A stretch of 34,815 bases of DNA from Angustibacter sp. Root456 (GTDB lineage Bacteria; Actinomycetota; Actinomycetes; Actinomycetales; Angustibacteraceae): contig NZ_LMER01000004.1 of the NCBI RefSeq assembly GCF_001426435.1, positions 1 through 34,815 on the forward strand. The letters run 5' to 3'. The notes beneath the pieces are model-generated. The model was not told the DNA's origin. It saw nothing but the letters and a program-made list of their open reading frames with translations, and did not search any database. Shown one piece after another: positions 62 through 15,171 of this stretch. Made by a program: the position numbers and the translations under genes. Every line of letters starts with the position of its first letter. Within the stretch, counting starts at the first letter, position 1.

Positions 62-68
62 CACCAGT

Positions 69-102
69 ACCAACCCAGTAACCAACCCAGAAGACCAACC
101 CA
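69..102 (+). repeat. Three short direct repeats ACCAACCCA
   Basis: The 9-mer ACCAACCCA occurs at 69-77, 81-89 and 94-102, spaced 12 and 13 bp apart. The repeats sit directly between the IS-like end and the first small ORF. Roughly helical-turn spacing suggests a protein binding array, but nothing else supports that reading. Confidence 0.4.
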
Positions 103-119
103 CTAGGGCGGAAGACGAA

Positions 120-293
120 GTGACACCAGAACAGAAGGCCAAGCTTGACGAGGTGTGGAACGAGGCTGGGGCCAGCTTCGCCAGCGAGGCAGCGGCGAAG
201 GCAGCTCGTGGAGAACCGCTCAACTTCATCGAGCGCGAGGCGCTGGAGCAGCGAGAGCAGGCACTCTCGCTCGTGCCGAGCTTCGACGACTGA
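120..293 (+). CDS. Small acidic hypothetical protein (57 aa)
   Basis: A GTG start at 120 follows a purine-rich GGGCGGAAG stretch and opens a 57-codon frame ending in TGA at 291-293. The product begins MTPEQKAKLDEVW and ends LVPSFDD. It is highly charged, rich in Glu, Ala and Lys, has no Cys, and is probably mostly helical. I do not recognise the family. Small charged helical proteins of this kind are common in actinobacterial phages and integrative elements. The gene lies just inside the IS-like end and is followed by strong hairpins that could end its transcript. The function is unknown, and the call rests on composition and a plausible ribosome binding site. Confidence 0.5.
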   Translation: MTPEQKAKLDEVWNEAGASFASEAAAKAARGEPLNFIEREALEQREQALSLVPSFDD

Positions 294-303
294 GCCACGG
301 CCA

Positions 304-450
304 AGGGCAGCGGCGAAGGGATGAAGAGCTAGCAGGCTTCCTCTGTGGGGCCTTCGGCCCCCATCGCAGCTAGCCACTTGGGGCAAGCCCCTGTGAGGCC
401 TTCGGCCCCATTGCGCTGGCGAGACTCCCCTAGCCCTTCGCCGCTGCCCT
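304..450 (+). other. Structured noncoding region closed by a 17-bp perfect inverted repeat
   Basis: AGGGCAGCGGCGAAGGG at 304-320 is exactly complementary to 434-450, enclosing 113 nt. Inside are three further hairpins: GGGGCC-TTC-GGCCCC at 347-361, GGGGC-AA-GCCCC at 380-391, and GGCC-TTC-GGCC at 397-406. The first and third belong to an imperfect direct repeat of about 24 bp (from about 342 and about 391). No convincing ORF covers the stretch. It could be tandem terminators for the gene at 120-293, a small structured RNA, or a DNA-level element such as a transfer or replication site. The sequence shows the fold potential but not the function. Confidence 0.5.
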
Positions 451-798
451 CTAGGTCTGCCGCTGCCTCAACGTTTCGCCGCTGCCCAGGTGGGGCCGTC
501 CAGGCCCCCTAGTCCGCTTGCTCAGCCTGGGGGCCAGCTCGGCGCCCCCTCAGAGCTCGTGGGGAGTGGCTTTCAGGGCCTGATGGCCCTTGCCGGGTGT
601 TCTGTACCTGAGAGGGCAGAAACCCTCCTCAAACCCTGCCCACACACCTCTCAGCCCGTACTCAGCCGCTGAGGCTGTGTCAGCTCCAGTGCAGCACTAC
701 CCAGACAGCAACCACCCAGGCCCCTCGCCACGACGGCAGGGGCCTTCGTCATGCCCAGCCCTACCGAGGGCTCGGGCTTCACCAAGGAAGAAGATCAA
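451..798. other. Noncoding stretch with further short inverted motifs
   Basis: I see no credible gene here. Frames of 60 to 70 codons exist but have no ribosome binding site and low-complexity composition. The core GCCGCTGCC of the preceding stem recurs at 459-467 and, as TCGCCGCTGCC, at 476-486. The 3' end holds the terminator-like hairpin listed separately, followed by the ribosome binding site of the gene at 799. Confidence 0.45.
718..745 (+). terminator. Terminator-like hairpin upstream of the gene at 799
   Basis: AGGCCCCT at 718-725 pairs with AGGGGCCT at 738-745 around a 12-nt loop. The stem is 8 bp and GC-rich, and is followed by TCGTC rather than a T-run. It resembles phage and actinobacterial intergenic terminators and would insulate the gene at 799 from upstream transcription. 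Confidence 0.4.
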
Positions 799-1623
799 GT
801 GACGAACACCAGCACCACCAGCTCCAGCGCCGTCGAGCAAGCACCGACCATTGCCCCGGCTGTGGCTGAGCTCGTCCGTCGAGCCGCCCAGGGCAAGCTT
901 CTTTCCGTCGAGGTGGCACCGCCTGGCAAGGCTGCTCGCGCTCCGCGCTCGACCCCAGCGGCGAAGGTGCGGCTGAGCGAGTCCGGCGAGCGGCTGGACA
1001 CGATCAACGGGCTCGTGCACGGCACAGCCTCAGTGTTGATCTTCTCTCCGTCTGAGCGACCCTTCCGGCTGGACGCTCGACGGCTCACCAGCGGGCTCGG
1101 CTGGGTGCGGGAGGGCTTGGTCAGTCAGCCCAGCGGCGACGTTCGCAAGATCGAGCATGGCCCCGTGTCCGAGCGAGTCACCCGAGCTGGGCTCCTCCTC
1201 CAGTCCCACCTCTGGAGCGTCACCGCTGCCGCTCCCCTGCCGGTACTTGGCGCTGGCCCTGTCCCCCAGCACGCTCGCTCTGGCTTCGCCAGCACCTTTG
1301 CCGCCAAGTGCTGCCGTGGTGGCTCGCTGAACGTGTGGAGCACGGTCCACTCTCACAGCCTGAACGTGCGCCAGGAAGGCCAGCTAGTCACTCGCGAGCT
1401 GCTCGTGGTGCTCGACGTGAGGAACGGACGAGGGACCACGCTCGACCACGCGCTAGAGGTGGTGCGGGACCAGATCGAGAGCACCGCTGGCGAGGCCGTG
1501 GCCTACCTGGGGCGCTGCACTACGGCAGAGGCTGTGCTGCACGAGCCCCAGCCGACTGGCTCGCTCGTGGCCGCTCGCTTCACCTTCGACTCGCTGGCGC
1601 CTGTTAGGGCCACAGCGGCATGA
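799..1623 (+). CDS. Island protein of unknown function (274 aa)
   Basis: The start is GTG at 799, chosen because AAGGAAG at 784-790 sits 8 nt upstream; an in-frame ATG at 751 has no ribosome binding site. The first 20 residues are Ser/Thr-rich. Residues 20 to 60 hold a helical segment with basic patches. The C-terminal half contains a hydrophobic, strand-like segment (LLVVLDVRNG) and a helix (LDHALEVVRDQIES). No catalytic motif, signal peptide or membrane helix is evident, and I do not recognise the family. The gene overlaps the next by ATGA at 1620-1623, so the two are probably co-translated. Frequent GCT, CTC and CGA codons set it apart from the backbone genes, which fits acquired DNA. Confidence 0.55.
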   Translation: MTNTSTTSSSAVEQAPTIAPAVAELVRRAAQGKLLSVEVAPPGKAARAPRSTPAAKVRLSESGERLDTINGLVHGTASVLIFSPSERPFRLDARRLTSGLGWVREGLVSQPSGDVRKIEHGPVSERVTRAGLLLQSHLWSVTAAAPLPVLGAGPVPQHARSGFASTFAAKCCRGGSLNVWSTVHSHSLNVRQEGQLVTRELLVVLDVRNGRGTTLDHALEVVRDQIESTAGEAVAYLGRCTTAEAVLHEPQPTGSLVAARFTFDSLAPVRATAA

Positions 1624-1883
1624 GCACCACGACGGCAGCGGCGAGGAGTGAGGCTGTCTGTGAGCTGCTCGACTGCGAGGCTCCGGCCTACTGCCGTGAG
1701 CTGTGCGCTCGCCACTACGCCAGGCAGAGGCGGCACGGCTCGCCGCTGGCTCCGCGCGGATCGGGCAGGAGCAGGACGGAGCCCGCTGCTCTGAGTGCCA
1801 GGAGCGCATCGCTGACGACAGCAAGAGCCCTGCTCCTCTGTCGTGCTCGGCTTCCTGCCACTCTCGCCGCTGACGACGGCTGA
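1620..1883 (+). pseudogene. HNH-type zinc-finger protein remnant, frameshifted
   Basis: The frame opens at the ATGA overlap (1620). It encodes CELLDCEAPAYCRELCARHY followed by ARQRRHGSPL, the N-terminal zinc module (C-x4-C, then LCxxHYxRxRRHGxP) common in phage and homing HNH endonucleases. After about residue 45 the frame becomes low-complexity Arg/Ala/Ser and stops at 1881-1883. A different frame over 1757-1873 instead encodes CSECQERIADDSKSP followed by LSCSASCHSR, the expected second zinc pair (CxxC...CxxxC). This points to a lost or gained base near 1740-1757, or to recoding; no slippery heptamer is evident. As written the product is a broken 87-aa protein, and no HNH catalytic motif follows. 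Confidence 0.5.
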
Positions 1884-2015
1884 GCTCTCCATAGAGCGGC
1901 CCAGGACAAGCTCCAGTCCGTCGCGGTTACAACGTTGGCAGTCTGCTCGTACTCCCCACCCCAACCCCAGCGGCAACGTCGACTAGGCGCCCGAGAAGGA
2001 CTCAGGAGGGGTGAC

Positions 2016-2111
2016 TTGCCGAGTGATCGACCCATCTTGTGCCCCACCTGTGAGACACAGGTCGAACATGCAATCCTCAACCCAGCGTCGCGACCCCACG
2101 GCACGCCTTGA
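2016..2111 (+). CDS. Possible very small CxxC protein (31 aa)
   Basis: AGGAGGG at 2004-2010, among the best Shine-Dalgarno matches in the window, lies 5 nt before a TTG at 2016. The frame reads PSDRPILCPTCETQVEH and ends at TGA 2109-2111, giving 31 aa with one CPTC knuckle. Small CxxC proteins are frequent on actinobacterial integrative elements. The unusual start codon and short length keep confidence low. An overlapping GTG at 2011 in another frame would use the same site poorly. Confidence 0.3.
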   Translation: MPSDRPILCPTCETQVEHAILNPASRPHGTP

Positions 2112-2143
2112 GCAAAGGCCACCGAGGGTGGCCCGGACGGCCC

Positions 2144-2149
2144 TACCCT
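2144..2149 (+). promoter_or_regulatory. -10 element of a leaderless promoter for the gene at 2157
   Basis: TACCCT lies 7 nt upstream of the ATG at 2157, so transcription would begin at or very near the start codon. No ribosome binding site is present, which fits leaderless translation as is common in actinobacteria. No clear -35 box is visible. Confidence 0.45.
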
Positions 2150-2156
2150 TTCCCGC

Positions 2157-2426
2157 ATGAGTGAGGTGAACTCGGAACCGCGAGTGGACGTCGGCTGGTG
2201 CCACAGTTGCGGGACCCTTCAGCTAAAGGGAGAGATGCCTGTCCGAAGCCTCCCCTGGACGAATGGACCTGAGCCGGTCTGCATTGTCTGCGGTGACGAG
2301 CCGTGGAAGCTCGGCGTCTGGGACAAGGGAGATCACTTCCTGGCCTGTCCATGGGTCCACGCTGCTCGCGCAAGAACCGTCGACTGGGCGCCCAGTTTCA
2401 CGTGCGCGTGTCCAGGTGTCGGCTGA
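2157..2426 (+). CDS. Small cysteine-rich hypothetical protein (89 aa)
   Basis: The ATG at 2157 follows a TACCCT -10 box by 7 nt, consistent with a leaderless mRNA. The product has two CxxC pairs, CHSC near residues 15-18 and CIVC near 42-45, which could bind one zinc. A tryptophan-rich middle follows (PWTNG, EPWKLGVW). The C-terminal part holds three more cysteines, the last two as CAC. I do not recognise the family. It ends 2 bp before the lipoprotein gene at 2429, so the two probably share a transcript. Its role is unknown; a zinc-ribbon structural protein is the most that can be said. Confidence 0.5.
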   Translation: MSEVNSEPRVDVGWCHSCGTLQLKGEMPVRSLPWTNGPEPVCIVCGDEPWKLGVWDKGDHFLACPWVHAARARTVDWAPSFTCACPGVG

Positions 2427-2428
2427 CG

Positions 2429-2767
2429 ATGCGCGCTCTAGGCGTCGCGTCGGTTGGATTGATGCTTGCGGTGTCCGGGTGCGCCAGCGCTGCACCCACG
2501 AAGTCGACGGACGCCTGCACCGACCCCAAGGCAACGGCGCAGAGATACCTCGAAGCCGCCAACGAAGACCGATCTGCGATCGACCGGCATAGCCTTAACG
2601 GCAACCCGGCCAGTCCAGCCGACGTCATGCCGCTCCGTGATGCTCGGGCGGCCTGGCGCCACGACATGCGTCTGGCAGGGCAAGTGATCGTCGGCAACCC
2701 GACATGCTTCGACGCTCAAGCTCGGGCGCAAGCTCAGGAAATACTCGAACAACTACCAGCTGAATAG
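2429..2767 (+). CDS. Small secreted lipoprotein (112 aa)
   Basis: The ATG at 2429 begins MRALGVASVGLMLAVSGCAS, a lipoprotein signal peptide with lipobox AVSGC and the lipidated Cys at residue 18. An in-frame start further upstream would put the signal internally and is rejected. The mature part is short, polar and helical, with a cysteine (DACTD) that could pair with NPTCFD near residue 95. No enzyme motif is seen. An AGGTG site lies about 11 nt upstream, inside the end of the preceding gene, which it follows by 2 bp. It is probably anchored to the outer face of the membrane; the function is unknown. Confidence 0.65.
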   Translation: MRALGVASVGLMLAVSGCASAAPTKSTDACTDPKATAQRYLEAANEDRSAIDRHSLNGNPASPADVMPLRDARAAWRHDMRLAGQVIVGNPTCFDAQARAQAQEILEQLPAE

Positions 2768-2984
2768 CCGGACTGACTGCCTGAACCTTCGGATGTGTCC
2801 ATTATCTGCGGGCCAGAACGGACGCAGGATGAGGGCACTGTCGACCGCCTTCCGTTCTGCGAGAACGTGAACAGCCACCCTCCAGGTCCGCCGGGTGTCG
2901 ACACATCGACTTTCAAACCGTGGCAGGACCTCGCGCGCTAAGACGTGGCGGTCGACGCAAATCTCCCCCAAGGGTTCCCCCCCC
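2768..2984. other. Intergenic stretch with one inverted repeat
   Basis: CAGAACGGA at 2814-2822 is complementary to 2851-2859 with a 28-nt loop. It may be a weak terminator for the lipoprotein gene or an operator. I see nothing else here. Confidence 0.3.
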
Positions 2985-2990
2985 TATCCT
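2985..2990 (+). promoter_or_regulatory. -10 element of a leaderless promoter for the gene at 2997
   Basis: TATCCT is followed by 6 nt and then the ATG at 2997. No ribosome binding site precedes the start, and the sequence before the box is a run of C. This matches the spacing seen at other starts in the window. Confidence 0.45.
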
Positions 2991-2996
2991 TCTGGC

Positions 2997-3215
2997 ATGC
3001 CGGAGGAGCGCTGGGGCGAGAAGTGGCAAGTTGGTGACCGCGTAACAGTGTGGAACCACTACGAGGAGCCGAGCCGGCTACGGCACGGCGTCATAGTCAA
3101 CCGTTCTTGGGGCCGCGAGCGAGGCAAGCCGATCTACTGGTTCACCCTCCAACTGGAGGGGGTGGAGGGAACTTGGGTGTTTGGTCCGGGCGCGCTGCAA
3201 GTGCCGGAACCCTGA
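2997..3215 (+). CDS. Small hypothetical protein, beta-rich (72 aa)
   Basis: I placed the start at ATG 2997, directly behind a TATCCT -10 box; an upstream in-frame start would add 34 residues of unlikely composition. The product begins MPEERWGEKWQVGDRVTVWNHYEEP and contains alternating strands (RHGVIVNRSWG, YWFTLQLEGVEGTWVFGPGALQ). The pattern resembles a small SH3-like barrel of the kind that opens with WxVGDRVxV. There are no Cys residues or catalytic motifs. It is a stand-alone leaderless gene, and I cannot assign a function. Confidence 0.5.
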   Translation: MPEERWGEKWQVGDRVTVWNHYEEPSRLRHGVIVNRSWGRERGKPIYWFTLQLEGVEGTWVFGPGALQVPEP

Positions 3216-3367
3216 ACCTGTTCCCAGCCGCCGCGCATCCGACTGCCAGCCGCCGATAGGGCGGCCACCGATCGAGGGACGGCCCGCGCAGTTGCGCCGC
3301 CTCAGCGGCTTCCCGTGGCAGACTCCAGCGCGCCACAGCGCTCGGTAGATCGTCCCAGGGGGACAAC

Positions 3368-4624
3368 ATGGGAAAGCAATCTCGACGCCCGAACCGCCGC
3401 ACGCGTCCTGGGCGCCAACGCGGCGGCCCCACACCTTTGAACGTGGTGATCGCGACAGCGCCATACGCCGACTTCAATGGGCCGTCAATGGAGCGGGATC
3501 TCCTCCTTGTGCGATCGGCCATCTTGTATGCGGATACCGTTCAATTGGTCAGCCCGGGGGCGGCCATGTTGGCCAATGTAGCGACGCTCGCGAACGGGGA
3601 TGAGCGGAACCTTCTGGGCCTCCTTACGTCGCTGGACGACGGGACAATCGCTCACCTGGGTGCTAGTGAACTGCCTGAGAACTGGCGCGAAGTCCTCTCC
3701 AGAATGGCTGCGTTCGGTGACGAGGAATGGGACCTAGTGGAGTCGCTGGCAGGCCAACCAGTCCCCCAAGAGGCGCGGTCGGCGTCCAAAGAGTTTCGGG
3801 AACGGCTCAGGCAAGCTGCCTCTGAGATGCAACAGGTCGCAGCAGGCATGATCCAAGACTCGGGAGCCAACGAGCTCACCGCCGCGTTCGATGCGGGCCT
3901 TCTTACGCTGTCCCCGTCCGGCTTGGACAAGGGTGCGGATGCTGAGTCCTTCACTGCCGGGTACGTGGACATCCTTCGGGGCCTGCTCAGGAATACGTCC
4001 GCTCACCTCTTGTTCGACGAGCAGATTAGGGACCTCGTGAGGAGCCTCATCAACGAGGGGCAGGTCGAGCCTTCTACGTTGACCATGGTCCAGGCTGGCC
4101 GTGCGGCGATTGGGAGCGGCCTTGTGGCACGCCTTCCCGCGTTCCCCGGCGTCCCCTTGGATGAGCTCATCGACCTCCGTTCTGACCTCGACGATCCATT
4201 GTCGAGATACAGGCGGAGTGTGGCTCAGATGTCGGCGCAGATGAACGTCAGCGCGGTCAATCCGGAGTTGGAGGCCGAGATTGACGACCTCTGGACCGTC
4301 GAGGTCGATCCAACGCTGAGGGATTTGAGGGAGGGACTGGCAGAGCATGGGCTAGTCCGTGATGTCGCACGCTCGTTGGCCGAGGACGTGTCCAGCGTCG
4401 TGGCAGGGGCGACTGGCAGCACAATCACCCTGGGTTTCACTTCTCTGTCCCACCTGTCCGGATGGCTCCAGGTGGCGGGAGGGGCGCTACCTCTCGCGTC
4501 TGCCCTCGCTGGGAGCGCGATCAAGGGGATCCACGCCCGAGGCGATGGCCAACATGAAGTACAGCGTCACGACCTCTTCTACCTGGTCGAGCTGGGCCGC
4601 CGCCTTCAGCGCAATGGCGCATAA
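3368..4624 (+). CDS. Unknown 418-aa protein, operon partner of a K+ channel
   Basis: The ATG at 3368 follows a CCCAGGGGGACAAC ribosome binding region. A basic N-terminal tail (residues 1-20, RRPNRRTRPGRQRGG) precedes a strand (LNVVIATAPY) and the segment MERDLLLVRSAILYADTVQLVSPG. A helical middle (residues 100-300) is rich in Glu and Arg. A weakly hydrophobic stretch (about 350-390, VVAGATGSTITLGFTSLSHL and LPLASALAGSAIKGI) precedes the end HDLFYLVELGRRLQ. I do not recognise a named family. The layout, a first-strand plus 'which side am I on' motif and a terminal YLVELGRRL, recalls uncharacterised proteins of accessory regions. It ends 12 bp before the potassium channel gene, so both are probably translated together. 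Toxin, sensor and antiphage roles are all speculative. Confidence 0.6.
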   Translation: MGKQSRRPNRRTRPGRQRGGPTPLNVVIATAPYADFNGPSMERDLLLVRSAILYADTVQLVSPGAAMLANVATLANGDERNLLGLLTSLDDGTIAHLGASELPENWREVLSRMAAFGDEEWDLVESLAGQPVPQEARSASKEFRERLRQAASEMQQVAAGMIQDSGANELTAAFDAGLLTLSPSGLDKGADAESFTAGYVDILRGLLRNTSAHLLFDEQIRDLVRSLINEGQVEPSTLTMVQAGRAAIGSGLVARLPAFPGVPLDELIDLRSDLDDPLSRYRRSVAQMSAQMNVSAVNPELEAEIDDLWTVEVDPTLRDLREGLAEHGLVRDVARSLAEDVSSVVAGATGSTITLGFTSLSHLSGWLQVAGGALPLASALAGSAIKGIHARGDGQHEVQRHDLFYLVELGRRLQRNGA

Positions 4625-4636
4625 GGGGAGCCCCGG

Positions 4637-5392
4637 ATGAGCTACGCGCAGAAAGCGAAGCCGGATGTCGACCGACGCGCACCATGGGAAGCGGCTGCGG
4701 ACTGGCCGCTGACCCTTGCTGCTGTGGCCTTTCTCCTTGCCTACGCCTTGCCGATCCTGGACCCTGAGTTGTCCTCGCCCATGCTACGGCTGTGCCGACT
4801 GACGACCTGGCTCGCGTGGGCCTTGTTCGTCGTGGACTACCTGGCGCGGCTAGCGCTGAGCGGAGCGCGCTGGGAATTCGTTCGATCGCATCTTCTCGAC
4901 CTGGCCGTCATTGCACTGCCGCTGCTTCGGCCCCTGCGCCTACTGCGACTCGTGACTTTGCTGAGCGTCCTCAACCGGTACGCCGGAGCATCGCTGCGCG
5001 GTCGGGTCGCGGTGTACGTCGCTGGGTCTACCTCCCTCGTGCTACTCGTGGCATCGCTGGCGGTGCTCGACGCTGAGCGAGGACACGAGGGCAGCAGTAT
5101 CGAGACGTTCCCTGATGCCCTGTGGTGGGCCATGACGACGGTCACCACCGTTGGCTACGGCGACCGCTTCCCTGTCACCGGGACGGGCAGGCTGATTGCC
5201 GCTGGTCTGATGTTGGCGGGTATCGCCCTGCTCGGCGTGGTGACCGCCTCGCTGGCGTCCTGGCTGCTCGAACAGGTGCGCGAGGTGGAGGAGGAGAGCG
5301 AGGCTGCCACTCGTCGCGACGTCGCAGCTCTGACCGCCGAAGTGCGGGCACTGCGCCAAGCACTGGAGCACGTAACGGACCACGAGCGGTAG
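4637..5392 (+). CDS. Voltage-gated-type potassium channel (251 aa)
   Basis: AAGGGGAG at 4623-4630 precedes the ATG at 4637. The protein has the six-segment channel plan. S1 is about residues 24-41 and S2 about 54-73. The S3/S4 region is about 86-112, with only a few arginines (LRPLRLLRLV), so voltage sensing may be weak. S5 is about 122-144. The pore helix and selectivity filter TTVGYGD are at 170-176, and S6 about 185-211. A charged coiled coil (residues 212-250) could form the tetramer stalk. The filter makes K+ selectivity near certain. It follows the unknown 418-aa gene by 12 bp in an accessory island, which is unusual for a housekeeping channel and suggests a linked function. Confidence 0.88.
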   Translation: MSYAQKAKPDVDRRAPWEAAADWPLTLAAVAFLLAYALPILDPELSSPMLRLCRLTTWLAWALFVVDYLARLALSGARWEFVRSHLLDLAVIALPLLRPLRLLRLVTLLSVLNRYAGASLRGRVAVYVAGSTSLVLLVASLAVLDAERGHEGSSIETFPDALWWAMTTVTTVGYGDRFPVTGTGRLIAAGLMLAGIALLGVVTASLASWLLEQVREVEEESEAATRRDVAALTAEVRALRQALEHVTDHER

Positions 5393-5399
5393 GCCCATG

Positions 5400-5804
5400 T
5401 CACCGCCAAGCGTTCAGCCAGGCAGTCTCGGCGGCAGCCTCCGCCTCCTGCAACCGCGCTAGCTCCTGTATGGACTCCTCAGTGATGGTTCGGTTCGGAA
5501 GCCGGATGGGCTGGCTGGCATCGTCAATGGCGAAGAACTCCTCAATGCCCCTGCGGTGTGCTTCTACGGCGTCCGTGTACGCCTTGCAGAGCGTCCATCG
5601 CTCGACGTAGCGGGCGGCCTCCCCTGGCAGGTGCCAGGCGTCAGGGCCGCTCTGGCTCTCGGTCCACCATGCCGCCGAGAGCGGGGCTCCTGCCTTCGCT
5701 ACTTCTGTCGCTAGGTCCGTGGGCACGGGGCCGTAGGGGTCCGCCATGAGGGCTTCGCGAGTCTGGGGCTTGAGGTTGCTCCACCAGGAGTCAAGGTCAG
5801 TCAT
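5400..5804 (-). CDS. Hypothetical protein (134 aa)
   Basis: The start is taken at the ATG on the minus strand at 5804, giving MTDLDSWWSNLKPQTREAL. A longer in-frame extension begins at 5834 but its sequence (SPCLATVVG) is unlikely to be coding. The product is helical and acidic, with several Trp (WW at 7-8 and again in AAWWTESQ) and a C-terminal Glu/Ala-rich helix. There are no membrane segments and only one Cys. The 3' end lies 7 bp from the convergent channel gene, and the 5' end is 47 bp from the divergent gene at 5852. I do not recognise it; proteins with an N-terminal SWWxxL motif occur in actinobacterial mobile DNA. Confidence 0.5.
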   Translation of the reverse strand: MTDLDSWWSNLKPQTREALMADPYGPVPTDLATEVAKAGAPLSAAWWTESQSGPDAWHLPGEAARYVERWTLCKAYTDAVEAHRRGIEEFFAIDDASQPIRLPNRTITEESIQELARLQEAEAAAETAWLNAWR

Positions 5805-5851
5805 GCCGACGACGGTAGCCAGGCAGGGCGACACCCTCCCCTACTTGCCGC

Positions 5852-6586
5852 ATGTCCGGGCGTCCCCTCTGGAACGCTGTGGCCGTGCCAACGTCAATAG
5901 AGCTCGTGCGAGGAGTCGGAACCGCGCTCACTCTGGCAGGGGTCTTCCTGGTCGCACCCTCCGGCACAGTGCACGCCGTTCGGTCCTCTTGGACTTGGTT
6001 GCGCCGAGCGCCACGACGAGCTCGCGCGAGGATGGCGAGCACCTGGCTCAAGAAGGTGCCCTGGCTTGGCCGGTGGCTCAGTAGTGCGAGCGTTCGGATC
6101 GCTGGCATTAGCGCATCGGCGACGGTCACCATGTCCGCAAGCGGCTCCGTCTCCGTCGTGGTGGCATGGCTGCCGGACACAGAGCCGGTGCACGCGAGGG
6201 TTACCCAGCTCCAGCGCAAGCTCGACGACGTGCGAGCGGAAGTAGATAAGCTGCGAAAGGACCACCACGCCAAGTTGGACGAGCTGCGGGCAGAGCTGAA
6301 CGACAGGGCCGAGCGACTATCGGCCCAGGTGGAGGAGCTCCAACGGCGGCTCACTCAGGCCGAGGCTGAGGCTGCCGTAGTCGATGCCAACGCTCTGCCG
6401 TGGGTCTTCGGCGGAGTCCTGCTCCAGAGCTGGCCCAGTGTCGTCGCATGGCTGCCGGTGTGGCTGCTCTGGCCCGTGCTGCTTGGGCTCTGCGCGCTTG
6501 CTGCCCGGCAGACCGTGAGGGCTGTACGGCGCGAGGTGGAGAGAGCGGGGCTTGCGGAACCGGGAGGCGCTGCTCAAGCAGCCTGA
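5852..6586 (+). CDS. Membrane protein with central coiled coil (244 aa)
   Basis: The start is uncertain: ATG 5852 is used, with TACTTG at 5842-5847 as a possible -10 box; GTG 5885 is the alternative. The protein has a hydrophobic N-terminal segment (about 20-37), a basic stretch, a weakly hydrophobic middle (about 80-108, SVRIAGISASATVTMSAS), and a long charged coiled coil (about 117-172) of heptad-like repeats such as VDKLRKDHHAKLDELRAELN. A hydrophobic hairpin follows (about 180-217, WLPVWLLWPVLLGLCALAA), then a short cytoplasmic tail. No enzymatic motif is visible. It is the last island gene, and its 3' end overlaps the truncated SGNH hydrolase frame by 13 bp on the other strand. The function is unknown; a scaffold or stalk at the membrane is possible. 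Confidence 0.55.
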   Translation: MSGRPLWNAVAVPTSIELVRGVGTALTLAGVFLVAPSGTVHAVRSSWTWLRRAPRRARARMASTWLKKVPWLGRWLSSASVRIAGISASATVTMSASGSVSVVVAWLPDTEPVHARVTQLQRKLDDVRAEVDKLRKDHHAKLDELRAELNDRAERLSAQVEELQRRLTQAEAEAAVVDANALPWVFGGVLLQSWPSVVAWLPVWLLWPVLLGLCALAARQTVRAVRREVERAGLAEPGGAAQAA

Positions 6587-7731
6587 GACAAGTTCCCAGA
6601 CACAAAGTCCGGTTGCAGTGACTCCTGAATGGTGTACGGCCCGAACACCGTGCTGACCGTGCGGATCTGGTTGATCCACTCGGTGTGGTCGACGGCCCCC
6701 GCCTGACGCCACGACGTCAGGCCCACCTCCTCGTAGAGGCCGACCCCCTTCTCGCACAGCCGCCGCCCGTTGAACGCGGTCGAGAGGTCGAGCACCGCGG
6801 CGTTGGTCAGGCCCGCAGACGTGACCGCCGAACGCACGGCCCGGTTGATCACCGGCAAGGCCGTCCCGTTGGCCCAGTCCAGGTCGCGGTTCCAGAAGCC
6901 GCACCCTCCGACGCTCTGGCGCGAGTACCCGCTCTGCGGGTAGCGGGCCGCCGTCGACGTGGGCAGCGGCGAGGGGTAGGTCTGCACGAGCAGGCGCCAG
7001 TCGCCGTCTGCGTACCCGGCGTCACGCATGGCGGTGCGCACGTTGCCCAGGGCCCGCGCGATCTTCGCCGAGACCGCTGCCTCGTTCGACGACGTGAAAT
7101 TCCCCTTCACCGACGCGTCGTCGTTGCAGTAGTTGGGCCACCACGACGACGACGTGAGCCAGTCGGTGACGCAGCTCTGGACGACGGAGGCGAAGTTGAA
7201 GTCGTTGCCGCCGATGGAGACGACGACCATCGAGACGCGGTGGTCGCGCGCCAGCTCGCGCAGGGCAGCGGCTTGGCCCTGCCGACCCGAGGCGTCGCTG
7301 TAGAAGTCCAGGCCCGGCTTGAAGTAGCCGCTGGAGTCGGTGAAGGTGGCCGTGCGAGCGCCCGAGCACGCCAGGTTGGCGCTGCTGACGCCATCGCCGA
7401 TGCTGATCTCGGCGGCCTTGCTGCGGTGACAGCGAGCGATCTGCTCACCGGTGCCGGAGGCGTTGTCGAAGTAGGCGGTGGAGCCCAGCGCGTCCGCAGG
7501 AGTGGTGCTGGCATTCGAGGACCCGGCCCAGCGACCGGCCTCGCCGCTGATGTAGCTGTCGCCCAGTGACACGACCCACGGGCTGCCCGAGGGTGCGGCG
7601 CTCGCGGGGGCCGCGCCGGTGAGCGCGCCGGCGCCGACGGCGGCCACTGTGACCGTGAGCGCCCACCCCCGCCGCCACCGGGTCGACCGGTTCCACCTGG
7701 ACGGGCGTGAGTGGTGGCCAGACAGCGTCAT
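6574..7731 (-). pseudogene. Secreted SGNH/GDSL hydrolase, 3'-truncated at the island border
   Basis: The ATG at 7731 has GGGGAG about 7 nt upstream and encodes a Tat/Sec-like signal (RRGWALTVTVAAVGAGALTG, cleavage near APASAA-PSG). The block I nucleophile is Ser59 in SLGDSYISGEAG, and a later VVVSIGGNDFNF is block III. In the full-length relatives I recall, the sequence QES-I/L-HPNYWGQ supplies the catalytic His and is followed by about 20 residues. Here the frame reads QESL and then QPDFVSGNLSQAA before stopping, so the His and tail are lost. The switch falls at about 6613-6616, where the island begins. The protein may still be made and secreted, but an active triad is not expected. Confidence 0.75.
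6610..6618. other. Right border of the accessory island
   Basis: The SGNH hydrolase reads normally up to the codons for QESL (minus strand, ending at 6616), then departs from the family consensus. The shared bases CA (first two of the expected His codon) place the crossover at about 6613-6615. Bases to the left carry island codon usage. No obvious target-site duplication can be checked, because the other border is outside the window. Confidence 0.55.
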
Positions 7732-7889
7732 CCGGGGCTCCCCGAACTCGAAGATCAGCAGTGCGGCGAGTGTGGCACGCGTCACAGGACGTCCTCGCCC
7801 AAGAGCAGGTAAAGACTCGGTCGAGGAAAGGTCGTCGGGTCCTCGGCGAGCCGGCGGTGGCTGTCGGTGCGGGGCAGCACAATCAAGGG

Positions 7890-9704
7890 GTGAGCGCCCA
7901 GCCGACGGTGCGGCCCGACGCCGACGTCTCCGCCGCCCTGGAGGCGTGGGCTGCAGCGGGCGTGCGCCGTGGTCAGCCGATGGGCCTGGCCGTGGAGTCG
8001 CGCACCGGAGCCGTCGTGGTGGGTGGCCCGCACGCGGTCGCCTTCAGCGCCGCACAGTACCCCGGCGCGATCGCAGCGGTCGACGCGGCGCTGCGTCCCC
8101 GGTGGGTGTGGTGGTGCGCCGCCACGACGGCGGGCCCGCTCGCCGACGCGGGCCGCCGACTGGGGGTCTGCTGGGACCTCGCCGCGGTGCACCGGCTGCT
8201 GGCCGGAGGCAGCACCGACGACGCCGGCACGGTGTGGGCCGCGCTGCACGGGCTCGACGCGGCGAGCCGTCCGCGCACCGGTCAGCTCGACCTGCTCGCT
8301 CCCGCGGCCAGCGCCCCACCGGCGCGTCGCCCCGCGCCTGCGGACGACCCGTGCGCAGCGGCGATCGACGGCACCGGCCACCTGCGAGCCGAGTGGGTCG
8401 ACGGCGGGTGGGCGCGCGATCTCGACCGCCTCACGGTCTGGGCGACGCTCGCCCTGCGGGCCCAGCTCGCGCAGCACCGGCTCCTGCACGACCGATCGCA
8501 CGAGCCCGGCGTCGGCGGCGATCCCCTGCGCACCGCGTTCTCGGAGTCGGCGGCCGCGCTGCTGTGCGTCGAGCTCGAGCGCGACGGCTTGCCGATCGAC
8601 GGGCCCGAGCTCGACCGGCTCGTGGCCGAGGCGGTGGGGCCACGACCCCGCAGCCCGGCCGAGGCCGCCGCAGCCCGGCGGCAGCGCGACCGGGCGGTGC
8701 TGCAGCACCTCCCGGGCGGCGAGGCGTCAGGCACCGACCTGCGCAACCCCACCCAGGTGCGCGAGGCCCTGCGCGGGGTGGGCATCGAGGTCCCCGACAC
8801 GCGGTCGTGGCGGCTGGAGCCCTGGCGCGAGCACCACCCCCTGGTTGCCGCGCTGCTGGCCTGGCGCAAGAGCGACCGGATAGCGACCACCTACGGCTAC
8901 GACTGGATCGACCGGCACATCGGTGCCGACGGCCGCCTGCGCGGCGACTGGCAGGCCAGTGACGGGGCCGCCGGCCGGATGACCGCCGGTGCCGGTCTGC
9001 ACAACCTGCCGGCTGAGCTGCGGTCAGCGGTCGCGGCACCGCCGGGGCAGGTGCTGGTGCGAGCCGACCTCGGCCAGGTCGAGCCGCGCGTGCTCGCCGC
9101 GGTGTCCGCAGACCGCGCCCTGGCCGCGGCCACCGCGGCCGACGACCTCTACGCCCCCGTCGCGGCGCGCCTCGGGGTCGAGCGAGCGGTCGCGAAGGTC
9201 GCAGTGCTGGCCGCGATGTACGGCCAGACGTCGGGCACGGCCGGAGAAGCGTTGAAGGGCCTCGACCTCGCCTACCCGGTGGCGATGCGGTACCTGCGCC
9301 GCGCGAGCGACGCGGGTCGCGGCGGTCAGGCGGTGCTCACCCACGGCGGCCGCCGCGTGCCCATGTGGACCCCCGCGCCCGCGGCTGACGAGCGGCAGGC
9401 GGCCGCCCTCGCCGGCGCGCGCGGCCGCTTCGCGCGCAACGCAGTGGTCCAGGGCTCGGCCGCCGAGCTGTTCAAGGCGTGGGCGGTCACCGTGCGCTCG
9501 GCCGCCCAGTCCCTCGGCGCCACTGTCGTCCTGTGCCTGCACGACGAGCTGCTGGTGCTGGCCCCGGACCACGAGGGTGAGGCCGTGGCCCACCTCCTGC
9601 ACCGCACCCTGGACGACGTCGCCGCCGCCTGGGCGCCGTCGAGCGGTGTGCGGTTCGTGGCCGACGTCCGGGTGGTGCAGCGGTGGTCGCAGGCCAAGGG
9701 GTGA
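7890..9704 (+). CDS. Family A DNA polymerase-like protein (604 aa)
   Basis: GTG at 7890 is chosen; AAGGGG abuts it, and CACAAT 6 nt upstream could also be a leaderless -10 box. The C-terminal half carries the polymerase I fold motifs: motif A as VRADLGQVEPRVL near residue 390, motif B as AKVAVLAAMYGQTSG near 435-450, and motif C as CLHDEL near 550. All three catalytic elements (D, K...YG, HDE) are present. The N-terminal part aligns in position with a 3'-5' exonuclease, but I see no DxE (it reads LAVES), so proofreading is unlikely. No 5' nuclease domain is present. Actinobacteria often carry this shorter second PolA-like protein in addition to PolA. The gene heads a plus-strand unit. Confidence 0.85.
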   Translation: MSAQPTVRPDADVSAALEAWAAAGVRRGQPMGLAVESRTGAVVVGGPHAVAFSAAQYPGAIAAVDAALRPRWVWWCAATTAGPLADAGRRLGVCWDLAAVHRLLAGGSTDDAGTVWAALHGLDAASRPRTGQLDLLAPAASAPPARRPAPADDPCAAAIDGTGHLRAEWVDGGWARDLDRLTVWATLALRAQLAQHRLLHDRSHEPGVGGDPLRTAFSESAAALLCVELERDGLPIDGPELDRLVAEAVGPRPRSPAEAAAARRQRDRAVLQHLPGGEASGTDLRNPTQVREALRGVGIEVPDTRSWRLEPWREHHPLVAALLAWRKSDRIATTYGYDWIDRHIGADGRLRGDWQASDGAAGRMTAGAGLHNLPAELRSAVAAPPGQVLVRADLGQVEPRVLAAVSADRALAAATAADDLYAPVAARLGVERAVAKVAVLAAMYGQTSGTAGEALKGLDLAYPVAMRYLRRASDAGRGGQAVLTHGGRRVPMWTPAPAADERQAAALAGARGRFARNAVVQGSAAELFKAWAVTVRSAAQSLGATVVLCLHDELLVLAPDHEGEAVAHLLHRTLDDVAAAWAPSSGVRFVADVRVVQRWSQAKG

Positions 9705-9717
9705 CAGCATCGACACC

Positions 9718-10560
9718 ATGAGCTCACCGACCACCGCCGAGCGCGGCGTCGAGGTCGCCTTCGTCCTCGGCGGTGGAGGGGTCCTCGGAGCCAGCGAGGT
9801 CGGCATGCTGCAGGCGCTGCACGCGCACGGGGTGCGAGCGGACCTCGTCGTCGGCACCAGCGTCGGCGCCATCAACGGCGCGCTGCACGCTGCGGCGCCC
9901 GACGACACGGAGCAGATCGCACGCGTGTGGCGCTCGATGTCGGGCTCGGCGGTCTTCGGTGGCTCACCGGGCGAGCGCCTGCGGCACCTGGCTCGGCTGC
10001 CCACCGCCCTGCACGGCAACCAGGCCCTGCGCTCGCTGCTCGAGGCCCGGCTCGACGGTCTGGGGTTCGCCGACCTTCAGGTGCCGTTCGAGTGCTGCGC
10101 GGCCTCCATCGAACGCGCCGCCGAGCACTGGTTCACCGACGGGCCGCTCGTCGAGGCGATCCTGGCCTCGTGCGCCGTCCCGGGGCTGTTCCCGCCCGTG
10201 CGCGTCGCGGACGAGCACTACCTCGACGGCGGTCTGGTCAACTCGATACCGATCGCGCGGGCGATCGAGCGCGGGGCACGCACGGTCTACGTCCTGCAGG
10301 TGGGCCGCGTCGAGCGCCCGCTCACCGCACCGACGCGCCCCTGGGACGTCGCCACCGTCGCCTTCGAGATCGCGCGCCGTCATCGCTTCGCTCGCGACCT
10401 CGCCGAGGTGCCCGACCACGTCGCAGTGCACGTGCTGCCGGCCGGTGACCCCGAGACCCCCTTGGCCAGCCTGCGCTACCGCAGCACCGCCCAGGTGCCC
10501 CGGCGCATCGAGCAGGCGCGGGTGGCCACGACCGCCTACCTCGAGCAGGTGGCCGGCTGA
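9718..10560 (+). CDS. Patatin-like phospholipase (280 aa)
   Basis: The ATG at 9718 lies 13 bp after the polymerase gene. The product has the oxyanion loop GGGGVLGASE (about residues 18-26), the nucleophile elbow GTSVG with Ser48, and the dyad Asp in YLDGGLVNS near residue 170. This completes the Ser-Asp dyad of bacterial patatins, which hydrolyse acyl esters of phospholipids. No signal peptide is visible, so it acts in the cytoplasm or on the inner membrane face. The stop overlaps the start of the acyltransferase gene (TGATG), which suggests coupled translation and a joint role in acyl-chain turnover. Confidence 0.9.
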   Translation: MSSPTTAERGVEVAFVLGGGGVLGASEVGMLQALHAHGVRADLVVGTSVGAINGALHAAAPDDTEQIARVWRSMSGSAVFGGSPGERLRHLARLPTALHGNQALRSLLEARLDGLGFADLQVPFECCAASIERAAEHWFTDGPLVEAILASCAVPGLFPPVRVADEHYLDGGLVNSIPIARAIERGARTVYVLQVGRVERPLTAPTRPWDVATVAFEIARRHRFARDLAEVPDHVAVHVLPAGDPETPLASLRYRSTAQVPRRIEQARVATTAYLEQVAG

Positions 10561-11579
10561 TGCTCCCCCCGACAATCGTGCGTCGGGGCGTGCTCGCACC
10601 GGTCATGATCCTGGCCGCCCTGGCCGCGGTGAGTGCCCTGCCGCTGTGGCTCGTGCTGCTCGCGGCCGCCTCACCGATCCTGCCGGGAGCCACGTGGCGT
10701 CCCCTGCGCGTCGGCTGGCTGGTGCTGGTCCACCTCGTGCTCGAAGCGAGCATCCTGGTCGCGCTGCTGGCCCTGTGGGTGGCCAGCGGCTTCGGGTGGG
10801 CCATCCGCCGTCCCCGCTTCGAGCGGGCGCACTACGACATCGTGCAGCTCTACCTGTCGGTGATGTATCGCGAGTCTCGGCGCGTGCTCGGGGTCGAGGT
10901 GCAGGTCGAGGGGCCCGCACCATCCAGCTACCACGACCGGCCGCTGCTCGTGTTCAGCCGGCACGCGGGCCCTGGCGACTCCTTCCTGCTCGTGCACGCG
11001 CTGCTCACCTGGTACGACCGCGAGCCGCGCATCGTGCTGAAGGACACCCTGCAGTGGGACCCCGCCATCGACGTGCTCCTCGGTCGCCTGCCGAACCGGT
11101 TCATCCGTCCGCACCCCGACGACGGCGCGGCCGTCGAGCGCCAGATCGCCCAGCTCGCCACCAACCTCGACCACGACGACGCGTTCGTGATCTTCCCCGA
11201 GGGGGGCAACTTCACCCGGCGCCGGCAGGCGCGGGCCATCGCACGGCTGCGGGCCAAGGGCCTGCTGGACGCCGCGGAGCGCGCGGAGAAGCTGCGGCAC
11301 GTGCTGCCGCTGCGACCCGGTGGCGTCCTCGCCGCGCTGCGGGCCGCCCCGGACGCCGACGTGGTCTGGGTCGCGCACACCGGCACCGACCACCTGATGT
11401 CCGTCGCCGACGTGTGGCACGCTCTGCCGCTCGACCAGACGATCCGGATGCGGTGGTGGCAGGTCGCGGCCGACGAGGTGCCCGCCACCGAGCAGGAGCG
11501 CCTGGAGTGGCTGCAGCACTGGTGGGTGCGCATCGACGACTGGATCGACGAGCACCGCGACGCACCGGCTGCGTCATGA
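10560..11579 (+). CDS. 1-acylglycerol-3-phosphate acyltransferase family protein (339 aa)
   Basis: The ATG at 10560 overlaps the patatin stop. N-terminal membrane helices (about residues 10-40 and 50-76) precede the PlsC-type domain. Motif I is SRHAGPGDS with His135 and Asp140, an HxxxxD motif. Motif III is VIFPEGGNFT near residue 212. The long C-terminal part (VWVAHTGTDHLMS onward) is typical of the larger actinobacterial members. The predicted reaction is transfer of an acyl group to a lysophospholipid or a related acceptor at the membrane. Pairing with a patatin suggests deacylation-reacylation remodelling. The 3' end overlaps the ArfB gene by ATGA. Confidence 0.87.
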   Translation: MLPPTIVRRGVLAPVMILAALAAVSALPLWLVLLAAASPILPGATWRPLRVGWLVLVHLVLEASILVALLALWVASGFGWAIRRPRFERAHYDIVQLYLSVMYRESRRVLGVEVQVEGPAPSSYHDRPLLVFSRHAGPGDSFLLVHALLTWYDREPRIVLKDTLQWDPAIDVLLGRLPNRFIRPHPDDGAAVERQIAQLATNLDHDDAFVIFPEGGNFTRRRQARAIARLRAKGLLDAAERAEKLRHVLPLRPGGVLAALRAAPDADVVWVAHTGTDHLMSVADVWHALPLDQTIRMRWWQVAADEVPATEQERLEWLQHWWVRIDDWIDEHRDAPAAS

Positions 11580-12106: not shown

Positions 12107-12919
12107 GTGAGCGGTGACAGCATCGCGGCCAGCGCCGGCCAGGCCGCTCGGAAGGTCTCGCAGTCGCCGTGGCTCGAGCGGGCCGCACGGGTCGGCTTCG
12201 TCGTCTCCGGCGTACTGCACCTGCTCATCGCGTACATCGCGGTGCAGGTGGCCTGGACCCGGCCCAGCGCGAAGGCCGACCAGTCCGGCGCGCTCAGCCT
12301 GCTGGCCCACCACGGCTGGGGCGAGGTCGTGCTGTGGGTCGGGGTCGTCGGGTTCGCCGCGCTCGGCGTGTGGCAGGTGACCGAGGCCCTGCTCCCCCGC
12401 GTCGGGGACGTCAAGGAGCAGCTCGGTCCACGCGCCAAGGCGCTCGCCAAGGGCGTGGTCTACCTCGTGCTGGCGGTGAGCACCCTGTCGTTCGCGCGCG
12501 GCTCGGGGTCATCGAGCAGCAAGCAGAGCCGGGACTTCACGGCGTCGCTGATGTCGCACAGCGGCGGCCGCGTGCTCGTGGTGTGCGTCGGACTCGCCGT
12601 GATCGGCGTCGGCGGCTACCACGTCTACAAGGGCGTGACGAAGAAGTTCCGCCAGGACCTCGTGGGCAACCCGGGCGCGGTGGTCGAGCACCTGGCGCTC
12701 GCCGGGTACGTCGCCAAGGGCATCGCCCTCGGGATCGTCGGTGTGCTGTTCTGCATCGCGGGCGCGCGCCAGCAGCCCAGCAAGGCCACCGGCCTGGACG
12801 GTGCGCTGCGCACCCTGCGCGAGCAACCGCTCGGTGGCGTCCTGCTGACGCTGGTGGCGCTGGGGCTGGCCGCGTACGGGCTGTACTCCTTCGCCCGGGC
12901 TCGCCGCGCCCGCTTCTAG
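12107..12919 (+). CDS. DUF1206 membrane protein (270 aa)
   Basis: GTG at 12107 is chosen, with AAGGAG about 9 nt upstream; an in-frame ATG at 12050 has no site. The protein has six hydrophobic helices arranged as three repeated two-helix units, beginning near residues 30 (ARVGFVVSGVLHLLIAYIAV), 110 (AKALAKGVVYLVLAVSTLSF) and 195 (ALAGYVAKGIALGIVGVLF). This threefold repeat with an A-x(3)-G-VxxxVLH-type start is the DUF1206 family, widespread in actinobacteria and of unknown function. It stands between the lipid/ArfB unit and recQ and has its own ribosome binding site. Confidence 0.85.
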   Translation: MSGDSIAASAGQAARKVSQSPWLERAARVGFVVSGVLHLLIAYIAVQVAWTRPSAKADQSGALSLLAHHGWGEVVLWVGVVGFAALGVWQVTEALLPRVGDVKEQLGPRAKALAKGVVYLVLAVSTLSFARGSGSSSSKQSRDFTASLMSHSGGRVLVVCVGLAVIGVGGYHVYKGVTKKFRQDLVGNPGAVVEHLALAGYVAKGIALGIVGVLFCIAGARQQPSKATGLDGALRTLREQPLGGVLLTLVALGLAAYGLYSFARARRARF

Positions 12920-12997
12920 CTCGTCCACAGGGCGACGGCGCCCCGCGCTTCGTCCACAGGCCGGGCCGTCGTGGACCCGGCTGTCGGCCGGCTCACG
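12920..12997. promoter_or_regulatory. Intergenic region with two DnaA-box-like 9-mers and hairpins
   Basis: TCGTCCACA occurs at 12921-12929 and 12950-12958, one base away from the actinobacterial DnaA-box consensus TTGTCCACA. Between them GGGCG-ACGG-CGCCC (12930-12943) can form a hairpin, and GTCCAC/GTGGAC (12952-12957 and 12971-12976) another. The hairpins may terminate the DUF1206 transcript. The boxes may be chance in such GC-rich DNA. Confidence 0.3.
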
Positions 12998-13003
12998 TAC
13001 GGT
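12998..13003 (+). promoter_or_regulatory. -10 element for leaderless recQ
   Basis: TACGGT is followed by 7 nt (GCCTCAG) and then the GTG at 13011. The box overlaps another possible GTG at 13002, which therefore cannot be the start if the promoter is used. No Shine-Dalgarno site is present. Confidence 0.45.
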
Positions 13004-13010
13004 GCCTCAG

Positions 13011-15167
13011 GTGACCTCATCCAGCACTCAGACCGACCCGCCGACTCCCGGCTCCTCGGACGCTCCGGCCGACGTCCGCGCGGCGGCGTCCGCCGTGCTG
13101 GCGACGCTCGTCGGCCGGCCGGACGCGCAGTTCCGCGAGGGTCAGCTCGAGGCCATCGAGGCGCTGGTCGTCGACCACCGGCGCGTGCTGGTCGTGCAGC
13201 GCACCGGGTGGGGCAAGTCGGCGGTGTACTTCGTCGCGACGGCGTTGCGCCGAGCGACAGGTGCCGGCCCGACGCTGATCGTCTCGCCGCTGCTCGCCCT
13301 CATGCGCGACCAGGTGGCGGCGGCCGCACGGGCCGGCGTGCGGGCGGTCACCATCAACTCCGGGAACGCGGACGAGTGGGGCGCCGTGAGCGCAGCGCTG
13401 GCGGCCGACGAGGTCGACGTGCTCCTCGTGAGCCCCGAGCGGCTCAACAACCCCCGCTTCCGGGCCGAGCAGCTACCCGACCTCGCGGCCCGTTGCGGGC
13501 TCCTCGTCGTCGACGAAGCGCACTGCATCAGCGACTGGGGGCACGACTTCCGGCCGGACTACCGGCGCATCCGCGACCTGCTCACCGATCTGCCCGCGGA
13601 CACCCCCGTTCTCGCCACCACCGCGACGGCGAACGCGCGGGTCGTCACCGACGTCGCCGAGCAGCTGGGGGCCGGCGGCCACGACGTGCTGACCCTGCGG
13701 GGGCCGCTGGCACGCGAGAGCCTGCGGCTGGGCGTCCTTCGCCTGCCGACCGCCGAGCACCGGCTGGCCTGGCTGGTGGCGCACCTCGGCGAGCTCGAGG
13801 GCAGCGGCATCATCTACACGCTCACCGTGTCGGCCGCCGAGGACCTCGCCGTCCTGCTCCGCGACGCCGGCTTCGCGGTCCGCGCGTACACCGGCCGCAC
13901 CGATCCTGCCGATCGCGTGGAGGCCGAGGACCTGCTGCGCCGCAACGAGGTCAAGGCCCTGGTCGCCACCAGCGCCCTCGGGATGGGCTTCGACAAGCCC
14001 GACCTCGGCTTCGTCGTCCACGTGGGGGCGCCGTCGTCGCCCATCGCGTACTACCAGCAGGTCGGCCGCGCCGGGCGCGCGACCGAGCGCGCCGACGTGC
14101 TGCTGCTTCCCGGCGTGGAGGACCGCGACATCTGGGCCTACTTCGCCAGCGCCTCGATGCCGCGCCAACCGGATGCCGAGGCGGTGCTCACCGCGTTGTC
14201 GCAGGCCGGCCGGCCGATGTCCACCGTCGCCCTCGAGGCCGTCGTCGACGTCCGCCGCACCCGGCTCGAGCTGCTGCTCAAGGTGCTCGACGTCGACGGC
14301 GCCGTGCAGCGGGTCAGTGGCGGCTGGATAGCCACCGGCACGCCGTGGGTGTACGACGCCGACCGCTACGCGCGGGTGGACGACGCGCGGCGACGTGAGC
14401 AGCAGCTGATGCTCGACTACGAGGCGACCCCCGCGTGCCGCATGGCCTTCCTGCAGGCGGCTCTCGACGACGACTCAGCCCGCCCGTGCGGCCGGTGCGA
14501 CCGGTGCGCGCCGCCCTGGTACGCCGAGTCGGTGCCCGACGCGGCGCGAGAGCGGGCGGGCGAACGGCTCGCCCGGGCCGGTGTCGAGCTCGAGCCGCGC
14601 GCGCAGTGGCCGAGCGGCATGGCCCGCCTGGGGGTCGAGGAGTCCGGCAAGATCTCCGCCGACGAGCGGCCAGCGACCGGCCGGGCCCTGGCCCGCCTCA
14701 CCGACCTGGGCTGGGGCCAACGCCTGCGCGAGCTGCTCGCCGCGCCGGACGCCCCGGTACCCGACGCGGTGCTGCGGGCCTGCGCCGGCGTCCTGCGCGA
14801 CTGGGACTGGGCGCAGCGTCCGGTGGCCGTGGCCTGGGTGCCCTCGCGCCGCCGCCCCGAGCTGGTGCGTTCGCTCGCCACCGGCCTCGCCGAGCTCGGT
14901 CGCCTCACCGACCTCGGGCCGCTCGACCTGGTCGATGGCGGACCCACCGGCGAGGCGGGGGGCAACAGCGCCTTCCGGCTCGCTGGCGTGTGGGGCCGCC
15001 TGGCGGTCGGAGACCGGCTGGGCGCCGGTCTGGCCGCCACGCGCGGCCCGGTGCTGCTCGTCGACGACGTCGTGGACTCGCGGTGGACCCTCACCGTGGC
15101 CGCGCAGCAGCTGCGCCGGCACGGCGCCGACGAGGTCCTCCCCTTCGCGCTCGCCGTCGCCGGCTGA
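13011..15167 (+). CDS. recQ: RecQ-family DNA helicase with C-terminal phosphoribosyltransferase-like domain (718 aa)
   Basis: GTG 13011 follows a TACGGT box. Superfamily 2 helicase motifs are all visible: Walker A QRTGWGKSA (about 63-71), SPLLALMRDQV (Ia), DEAHCISDWGHDFRP (about 167, with the RecQ aromatic-rich loop), TATA (III) and QVGRAGR (VI). A four-Cys zinc site follows (ACRMAF, then CGRCDRC, about 476-500). There is no HRDC domain. The last 150 residues end with VLLVDDVVDSRWTLTVAA, the PRPP-binding loop of ComF-type phosphoribosyltransferases. Such RecQ-PRTase proteins are known in actinobacteria, but the purpose of the tail is unclear. Predicted role: 3'-5' unwinding during recombination and repair. 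Confidence 0.9.
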   Translation: MTSSSTQTDPPTPGSSDAPADVRAAASAVLATLVGRPDAQFREGQLEAIEALVVDHRRVLVVQRTGWGKSAVYFVATALRRATGAGPTLIVSPLLALMRDQVAAAARAGVRAVTINSGNADEWGAVSAALAADEVDVLLVSPERLNNPRFRAEQLPDLAARCGLLVVDEAHCISDWGHDFRPDYRRIRDLLTDLPADTPVLATTATANARVVTDVAEQLGAGGHDVLTLRGPLARESLRLGVLRLPTAEHRLAWLVAHLGELEGSGIIYTLTVSAAEDLAVLLRDAGFAVRAYTGRTDPADRVEAEDLLRRNEVKALVATSALGMGFDKPDLGFVVHVGAPSSPIAYYQQVGRAGRATERADVLLLPGVEDRDIWAYFASASMPRQPDAEAVLTALSQAGRPMSTVALEAVVDVRRTRLELLLKVLDVDGAVQRVSGGWIATGTPWVYDADRYARVDDARRREQQLMLDYEATPACRMAFLQAALDDDSARPCGRCDRCAPPWYAESVPDAARERAGERLARAGVELEPRAQWPSGMARLGVEESGKISADERPATGRALARLTDLGWGQRLRELLAAPDAPVPDAVLRACAGVLRDWDWAQRPVAVAWVPSRRRPELVRSLATGLAELGRLTDLGPLDLVDGGPTGEAGGNSAFRLAGVWGRLAVGDRLGAGLAATRGPVLLVDDVVDSRWTLTVAAQQLRRHGADEVLPFALAVAG

Positions 15168-15171
15168 GCCC

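Follow-up and report, generated by a model that had tools for sequence, protein, structure and literature searches.

The minus strand of the window (the whole stretch of 34,815 nucleotides of Angustibacter sp. Root456 DNA analysed here) carries at positions 6574-7785 the gene of an SGNH-type hydrolase that is truncated at its catalytic histidine, as judged from its translation and its homologues. The N-terminus of the product looks, by eye, like a signal peptide, which is the sole basis for regarding the enzyme as secreted. A previous reading of the letters without database searches (the sequence-only reading) had noted that the protein agrees with its family as far as the residues QESL and then departs from it. 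Translation and alignment with homologues bear this out: the open reading frame closes with YTIQESLQPDFVSGNLSQAA and a stop, the C-terminus being QESLQPDFVSGNLSQAA. The final 13 codons before the stop are DNA of an integrated island, whose last open reading frame converges on the hydrolase gene. A scan of positions 6400-8000 found no promoters or terminators.

Relatives of the hydrolase number 101 in the genome_contigs collection, and the best 80 loci of these 101 were used. At the position where the window protein has a glutamine, all 80 loci and the gene of a genus-mate have a histidine, two further rows of the listing being the window itself. Complete rows for the alignment came from 79 of the loci and the genus-mate (L084, whose contig ends first, was left out), and the histidine is present in 80 of these 80. 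In the window copy its codon, at 6615-6613 on the minus strand, is changed from CAC to CAA, the third base being C in 95% of the alignment rows; the last 45 residues are also gone, so that 12 residues follow the glutamine as against 42-46 after the histidine in complete homologues. The sequence-only reading, which had proposed an alignment of this kind, was right to place an island border inside the gene and to see in it the loss of the catalytic histidine. Two other accounts of the 3' end can be set aside. The stop in the window is not the natural end of the gene, since 80 of 80 homologues run on past it, and the island does not supply a replacement 3' end: QPDF resembles HPNY, after which the frame diverges and stops.

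Ser77, Gly142, Asn194 and His391 each occur in 80 of the 80 aligned homologues. The window copy retains the catalytic serine and the oxyanion glycine and asparagine at positions 77, 142 and 194 (roles assigned by analogy with the lipase of Streptomyces rimosus) and lacks the histidine; since this histidine, in block V, is replaced by glutamine, we are dealing with a truncated SGNH gene and not with an intact enzyme. Pfam scores of the window protein stay below the cut-offs (PF00657, GDSL, 18.2 bits against 23.6; PF13472, 17.1 against 32.9), and NCBIfam gave no match for it or for the intact homologue L010. An SGNH fold of the family is supported by the predicted structure of L010 (mean pLDDT 85.4), which resembles three Streptomyces SGNH enzymes: phospholipase A1 of S. 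albidoflavus (SaPLA1, 4hyq; Z 22.4, rmsd 2.5, 231 aligned), the S. rimosus lipase (SrL, 5mal; Z 21.9, rmsd 2.6, 229 aligned) and the esterase of S. scabies (SsEst, 1esc; Z 19.6, rmsd 3.5, 256 aligned). Identity to these enzymes is only 14-24%, however, and their histidine is absent from the window copy. Sequence searches of the PDB gave no match at E 0.01; with the limit relaxed to E 10, the top two hits were local matches to 4hyq (E 0.096) and 5mal (E 0.57) that stop short of the histidine. Since no alignment to known structures reached this residue, its parallel in the S. rimosus lipase is drawn from the range of the fold and from the motif. In that lipase Ser214 stands two residues before His216, as in the Ser-Leu-His of the hydrolase family, and the His216Ala exchange abolished activity on all substrates tested (PMC10779480). 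According to the L010 model, the cut also costs the protein its last long helix (328-345) and the strands at its C-terminus. Because helix, strands and catalytic histidine are lost together, and the His216Ala lipase is inactive, inactivity of the truncated hydrolase is a strong prediction by analogy.

The missing 3' fragment, which the sequence-only reading had recommended looking for, bounds the island on its other side: a query with the tail located it in the same genome (G000) at positions 5350-5487 of contig C14, with histidine as its first codon and 83% identity to the tail of the genus-mate's gene. When the two host halves are joined, they form an uninterrupted hydrolase frame of 436 amino acids. 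In the genus-mate (G001, locus L090) the hydrolase gene is whole and lies in the same synteny without an island, i.e., as an empty site. Positions 6606-7582 of the window align to L090 8293-9269 and positions 5349-5491 of C14 to L090 8303-8161, stretches which are adjacent and slightly overlap. By blastn, window segments 6606-7582, 8072-11562 and 12169-15170 are collinear in pieces with L090 8293-16346, and C14 5349-13232 is likewise collinear in pieces with L090 8303-3. Because both host halves fit adjacent stretches of this uncut locus, the island must lie between window position 6615 and C14 position 5350, and the right edge of the island had been correctly set at the hydrolase junction. 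The presence of both halves on one uninterrupted, collinear locus confirms that the gene is split well beyond chance. A comparison with an island-free strain had also been advised; the relative that provided it, with its intact gene, is another species of the genus and not a strain of the same species. The two arms of the island have GC contents of 65.7% and 67.0%, as against 72.9% and 72.7% for the flanks.

The right arm of the integrated element occupies positions 1-6615 of the window, and the other arm corresponds to C14:1-5350 (locus L096). In the window, the plus strand encodes a 290-aa protein of unknown function (751-1623), whose C-terminus is weakly like that of the L096:1281-2348 product (41% over 44 columns, E 7e-04 for the pair), a protein with a weak HNH-endonuclease match (1620-1883; phrog_5351, E 2.5e-05), a 418-aa protein without significant family match in profile searches (3368-4624) and a potassium-channel-like membrane protein (4637-5392; PF07885, E 1.4e-17; phrog_7872, E 8.4e-27). 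Neither the 418-aa protein nor, by tblastn, the channel-like protein had a match in the phage collection. A 144-aa open reading frame on the minus strand (5400-5834) is also without significant family match in profile searches. The last island frame, at 5852-6586 on the plus strand, encodes a coiled-coil protein with hydrophobic stretches (by eye), for which there are weak coiled-coil-type matches only, among them head-scaffold-type PHROGs families (best E 3.9e-04). On C14, an excisionase-like HTH gene (L096:2869-3093; phrog_66, E 4.2e-07) lies near the integrase described below; its product also has a small-terminase match (E 1.3e-06), weaker than the excisionase match. One HNH-endonuclease-like gene and one replication-initiator-like gene are likewise found near the integrase. 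Among 17 island proteins scanned in PHROGs (nine from the window, eight from C14) there was no clear match to phage structural genes, and a PADLOC scan of the nine window proteins gave weak matches only. A 355-aa island protein has no relative in viral_contigs (nine stretches) and no match in phages or plasmids; within 396 genomes of the order it occurs in four, its own included, at E 1e-8, the others being 32-34% identical.

The replication-initiator-like gene is itself made up of two parts, L096:1-522 and window 1-293 (phrog_270 and phrog_391, E about 2e-06), with IS21 ends between them. Direct repeats, some of them spaced by 22 nt, occupy L096:74-243, and positions 69-105 of the window hold short ACCAACCCAG repeats. 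These repeats may represent an origin within the initiator gene.

The gene closest to the junction on C14 encodes a large serine integrase of 493 residues (L096:3834-5315, minus strand) that runs inward, its start lying 34 bp from the GCA common to the two junctions. The start chosen is the ATG at L096:5315; the longest frame begins at a TTG at L096:5357, beyond the junction. The protein carries a resolvase domain (PF00239, 109.3 bits against a cut-off of 23.3, E 2.3e-31) and a recombinase domain (PF07508, 45.7 bits against 21.1, E 8.5e-12), with a zinc-ribbon match below the Pfam cut-off (PF13408, 22.8 bits against 25.3), and it matches the phrog_95 integrases over residues 6-488 (E 6.9e-97). 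Domain order and mechanism are those of the large serine integrases of Streptomyces phages (phiCAM, the phiScoe phages, Caliburn and others). Out of 1,115 phage records, the best 15 show 40.3-42.0% identity across 90-91% of the protein; identity to the best genome and phage matches listed does not exceed 44%, and all other phage and plasmid matches are below 60%. A single stretch was retrieved from viral_contigs and is not a relative. At E 1e-60, with three candidates scored per genome, relatives of the integrase occur in 17 of the 396 genomes of the order, its own included. The same genome encodes a second serine-recombinase-like protein (G000:C16:122766-124127, L148), which is 32% identical to the island integrase.

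The two junctions have GCA alone in common (6614-6616, minus strand). The sequence-only reading had put the crossover at about 6613-6615, which is right to a base: read in the sense of the gene, the GCA is at 6616-6614, and the core is probably the dinucleotide CA at 6615-6614. Around it lies a hybrid attachment site with the approximate limits 6590-6640 (minus strand), of which 6616-6640 would be the host attB half and 6590-6613 the island attP half, the half-site lengths being set after PMC3783163. When the ends of the island are joined, they form an attP-like imperfect inverted repeat (15/25) centred on the CA that makes up the first two bases of the histidine codon. Symmetry of this degree occurs at 145 out of the 52,755 positions that the two sequences comprise, and the CA is the best of 13 offsets. 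The symmetry of attB about the same CA is weak (7/15, a value that 13% of positions attain). Counted from the core, positions 7 and 8 are C and T in each of the four half-sites. According to the structural model of serine integrases (PMC3783163), the outer motif of attP is displaced outward by 5 bp relative to that of attB. The outer half-site motif is best matched here with just this displacement, at 14/28 in a segment chosen after looking; for this post-hoc segment, 0.36% of shuffles do as well at +5, but 5.4% at any of 15 shifts.

The target is among the better conserved parts of the hydrolase gene. In a ranking of overlapping stretches by nucleotide conservation, the CA-centred one comes 15th of 1,279 at 30 nt, 40th of 1,269 at 40 nt and 56th of 1,259 at 50 nt. 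An integrase that reads the catalytic motif of the hydrolase could expect to meet this motif in many hosts, and a large survey lists 33 serine recombinases with a single common conserved site inside coding sequence (PMC10083194). No occupied site besides its own was found in the genomes searched. Among the 17 loci with integrase relatives (flanks of about 1.5 kb or less), the hydrolase tail lies beside the integrase in its own locus only. A split hydrolase was sought in two overlapping samples, one of 396 genomes from the order and one of 394 from the class. In the first, 15 matched at E 1e-8, and the eight below E 1e-100 comprised seven full-length genes and its own, split one; in the second, 46 matched, and 14 of the 15 below E 1e-130 were full length, its own again being split. 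The hydrolase was not found in viral_contigs. Among the matches listed from the open-licence literature, titles and abstract openings contained no description of this hydrolase gene as an attB target.

Taken together, we consider it highly probable (roughly 93%) that a serine-integrase element of about 12 kb, to which an IS21 copy is added, has integrated at an attB within the catalytic motif of the hydrolase and inactivated the enzyme. The size is the sum of 5,350 and 6,615 bases on C14 and C4 (the contig of the window), with the ends of the IS21 copy included. In the mechanism that we envisage, the large serine integrase would have recombined the attP of the element with attB inside the host gene, probably by exchange at the CA that forms the first two bases of the catalytic histidine codon CAC. 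The cut gene would then encode a protein deprived of the catalytic histidine, the last helix and the tail, and hence presumably inactive. Excision with the help of a directionality factor would be expected to restore the intact frame of 436 codons. This mechanism of integration is already known, and the position of the target in the hydrolase is neat rather than revolutionary.

A further question concerns the meaning of the insertion rather than its origin. The integrase and a directionality factor might excise the element in a regulated manner and give the hydrolase back to the host under some condition. The rejoined frame is exact, at 436 amino acids, the island possesses the excisionase-like HTH gene, and there are precedents in SP-beta, which splits spsM, and in the Clostridium difficile skin element, which splits sigK; in both, precise excision of the recombinase element restores the frame (PMC4191935, PMC5025042). 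Regulated excision has been demonstrated for these elements and is conjectural for the island. The state of the two pieces also agrees with such a role: in the 5' piece, two of 99 near-invariant positions are changed, as against two of 98, the same two, in the intact gene of the genus-mate, and relative to the latter dN and dS are 0.21 and 0.71 for the 5' piece and 0.14 and 0.66 for the tail. By these measures neither piece is decayed, but this would be equally expected after a recent insertion. Moreover, the window copy resembles its homologues slightly less than the gene of the genus-mate does (mean identity of 66.3% vs 67.9% over the 321 columns common to both, and lower in 64 of 79 comparisons), the interruption of the replication-initiator-like gene by IS21 suggests damage, and the case is based on a single genome of the species, the search of the genus having given two genomes. 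We therefore regard regulated excision as unlikely. If true, the hydrolase would be active only in cells in which the element is excised and the histidine codon rebuilt, and the switch would act on an exoenzyme of this actinobacterial hydrolase family.

As to the origin of the junction, HNH-type genes and IS21 ends are also present in the island, and a tyrosine integrase, homologous recombination or a transposase could in principle have made it, the adjoining serine integrase being coincidental. Tyrosine integrases, however, leave a longer direct repeat than the GCA which alone is common to the junctions. The symmetry of attP is moreover centred on the junction, and the integrase starts 34 bp away, which makes an origin of this sort very improbable. 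It is hardly credible at all that unrelated contigs were fused at 6615 into an assembly chimera. The window does lie at the edge of its contig, and C14 and C4 each have a repeat at their start, but each junction is thousands of bases away from a contig end, the break in the hydrolase gene falls on the same base in both, and an exact 5-bp duplication ties the two arms of the island together.

The break in the assembly between the arms can probably be traced to these repeats. C4 and C14 both begin with 63 bases that also end C16 or start C3; those at window positions 1-63 probably represent one terminus of an IS21-type element located within the island and are identical to the last 63 bases of C16 (243269-243331). 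The target duplication next to them, CCAGT (64-68, plus strand), is identical to that beside the other IS end on C14 and pairs C14 with C4, and CCAGC/CCAGC pairs C3 with C16. The other IS end (C14:1-63) resembles two plasmid records (77-78% identity over 52-55 nt), with weak E-values of 0.003 and 0.1; in each record, 8 nt separate the matched stretch from an istB gene annotated in an IS21-like element. Given the IS-type ends and the identical 5-bp duplications, one IS21 copy most likely sits between C14:1 and window base 1, inside the replication-initiator-like gene, and would have broken the assembly there. Because the interior of IS21 was not found in the assembly contigs, it is from the target duplication that C14 and C4 are taken to be continuous. 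Elsewhere in the assembly there are three IstB-profile matches, one above the cut-off and partial (positions 95-195 of 238) and two below it.

Among known systems, the phage phiJoe likewise has its attP just upstream of int (18 bp), in agreement with the place of attP in the island element (PMC5311408). Its attB belongs to a different gene, though, and phiJoe itself is not among the matches listed for the island integrase. The attB of phiJoe generally lies 74 bp from the end of the open reading frame, and its authors consider that an insertion so near the end may spare function (PMC5311408). In contrast, the hydrolase is cut about 140 bp from the end of the gene, with removal of the catalytic histidine. 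A lipid-hydrolase gene is also inactivated by a mobile element when the prophage phiSa3 resides in hlb of Staphylococcus aureus, but enzyme and host are unrelated to those considered here, and excision has been studied in phiSa3 (PMC6597384).

The locus provides a candidate set of integrase, attP and attB at base resolution, which might serve as an integration tool for related genera. Many Actinobacteria possess the enzyme whose catalytic motif attB spans, which suggests how the site stays recognisable, and a clean gene-off state is predicted for the hydrolase. Outside the island, at 33933-34026 of the window's minus strand, ARAGORN predicts a selenocysteine tRNA.
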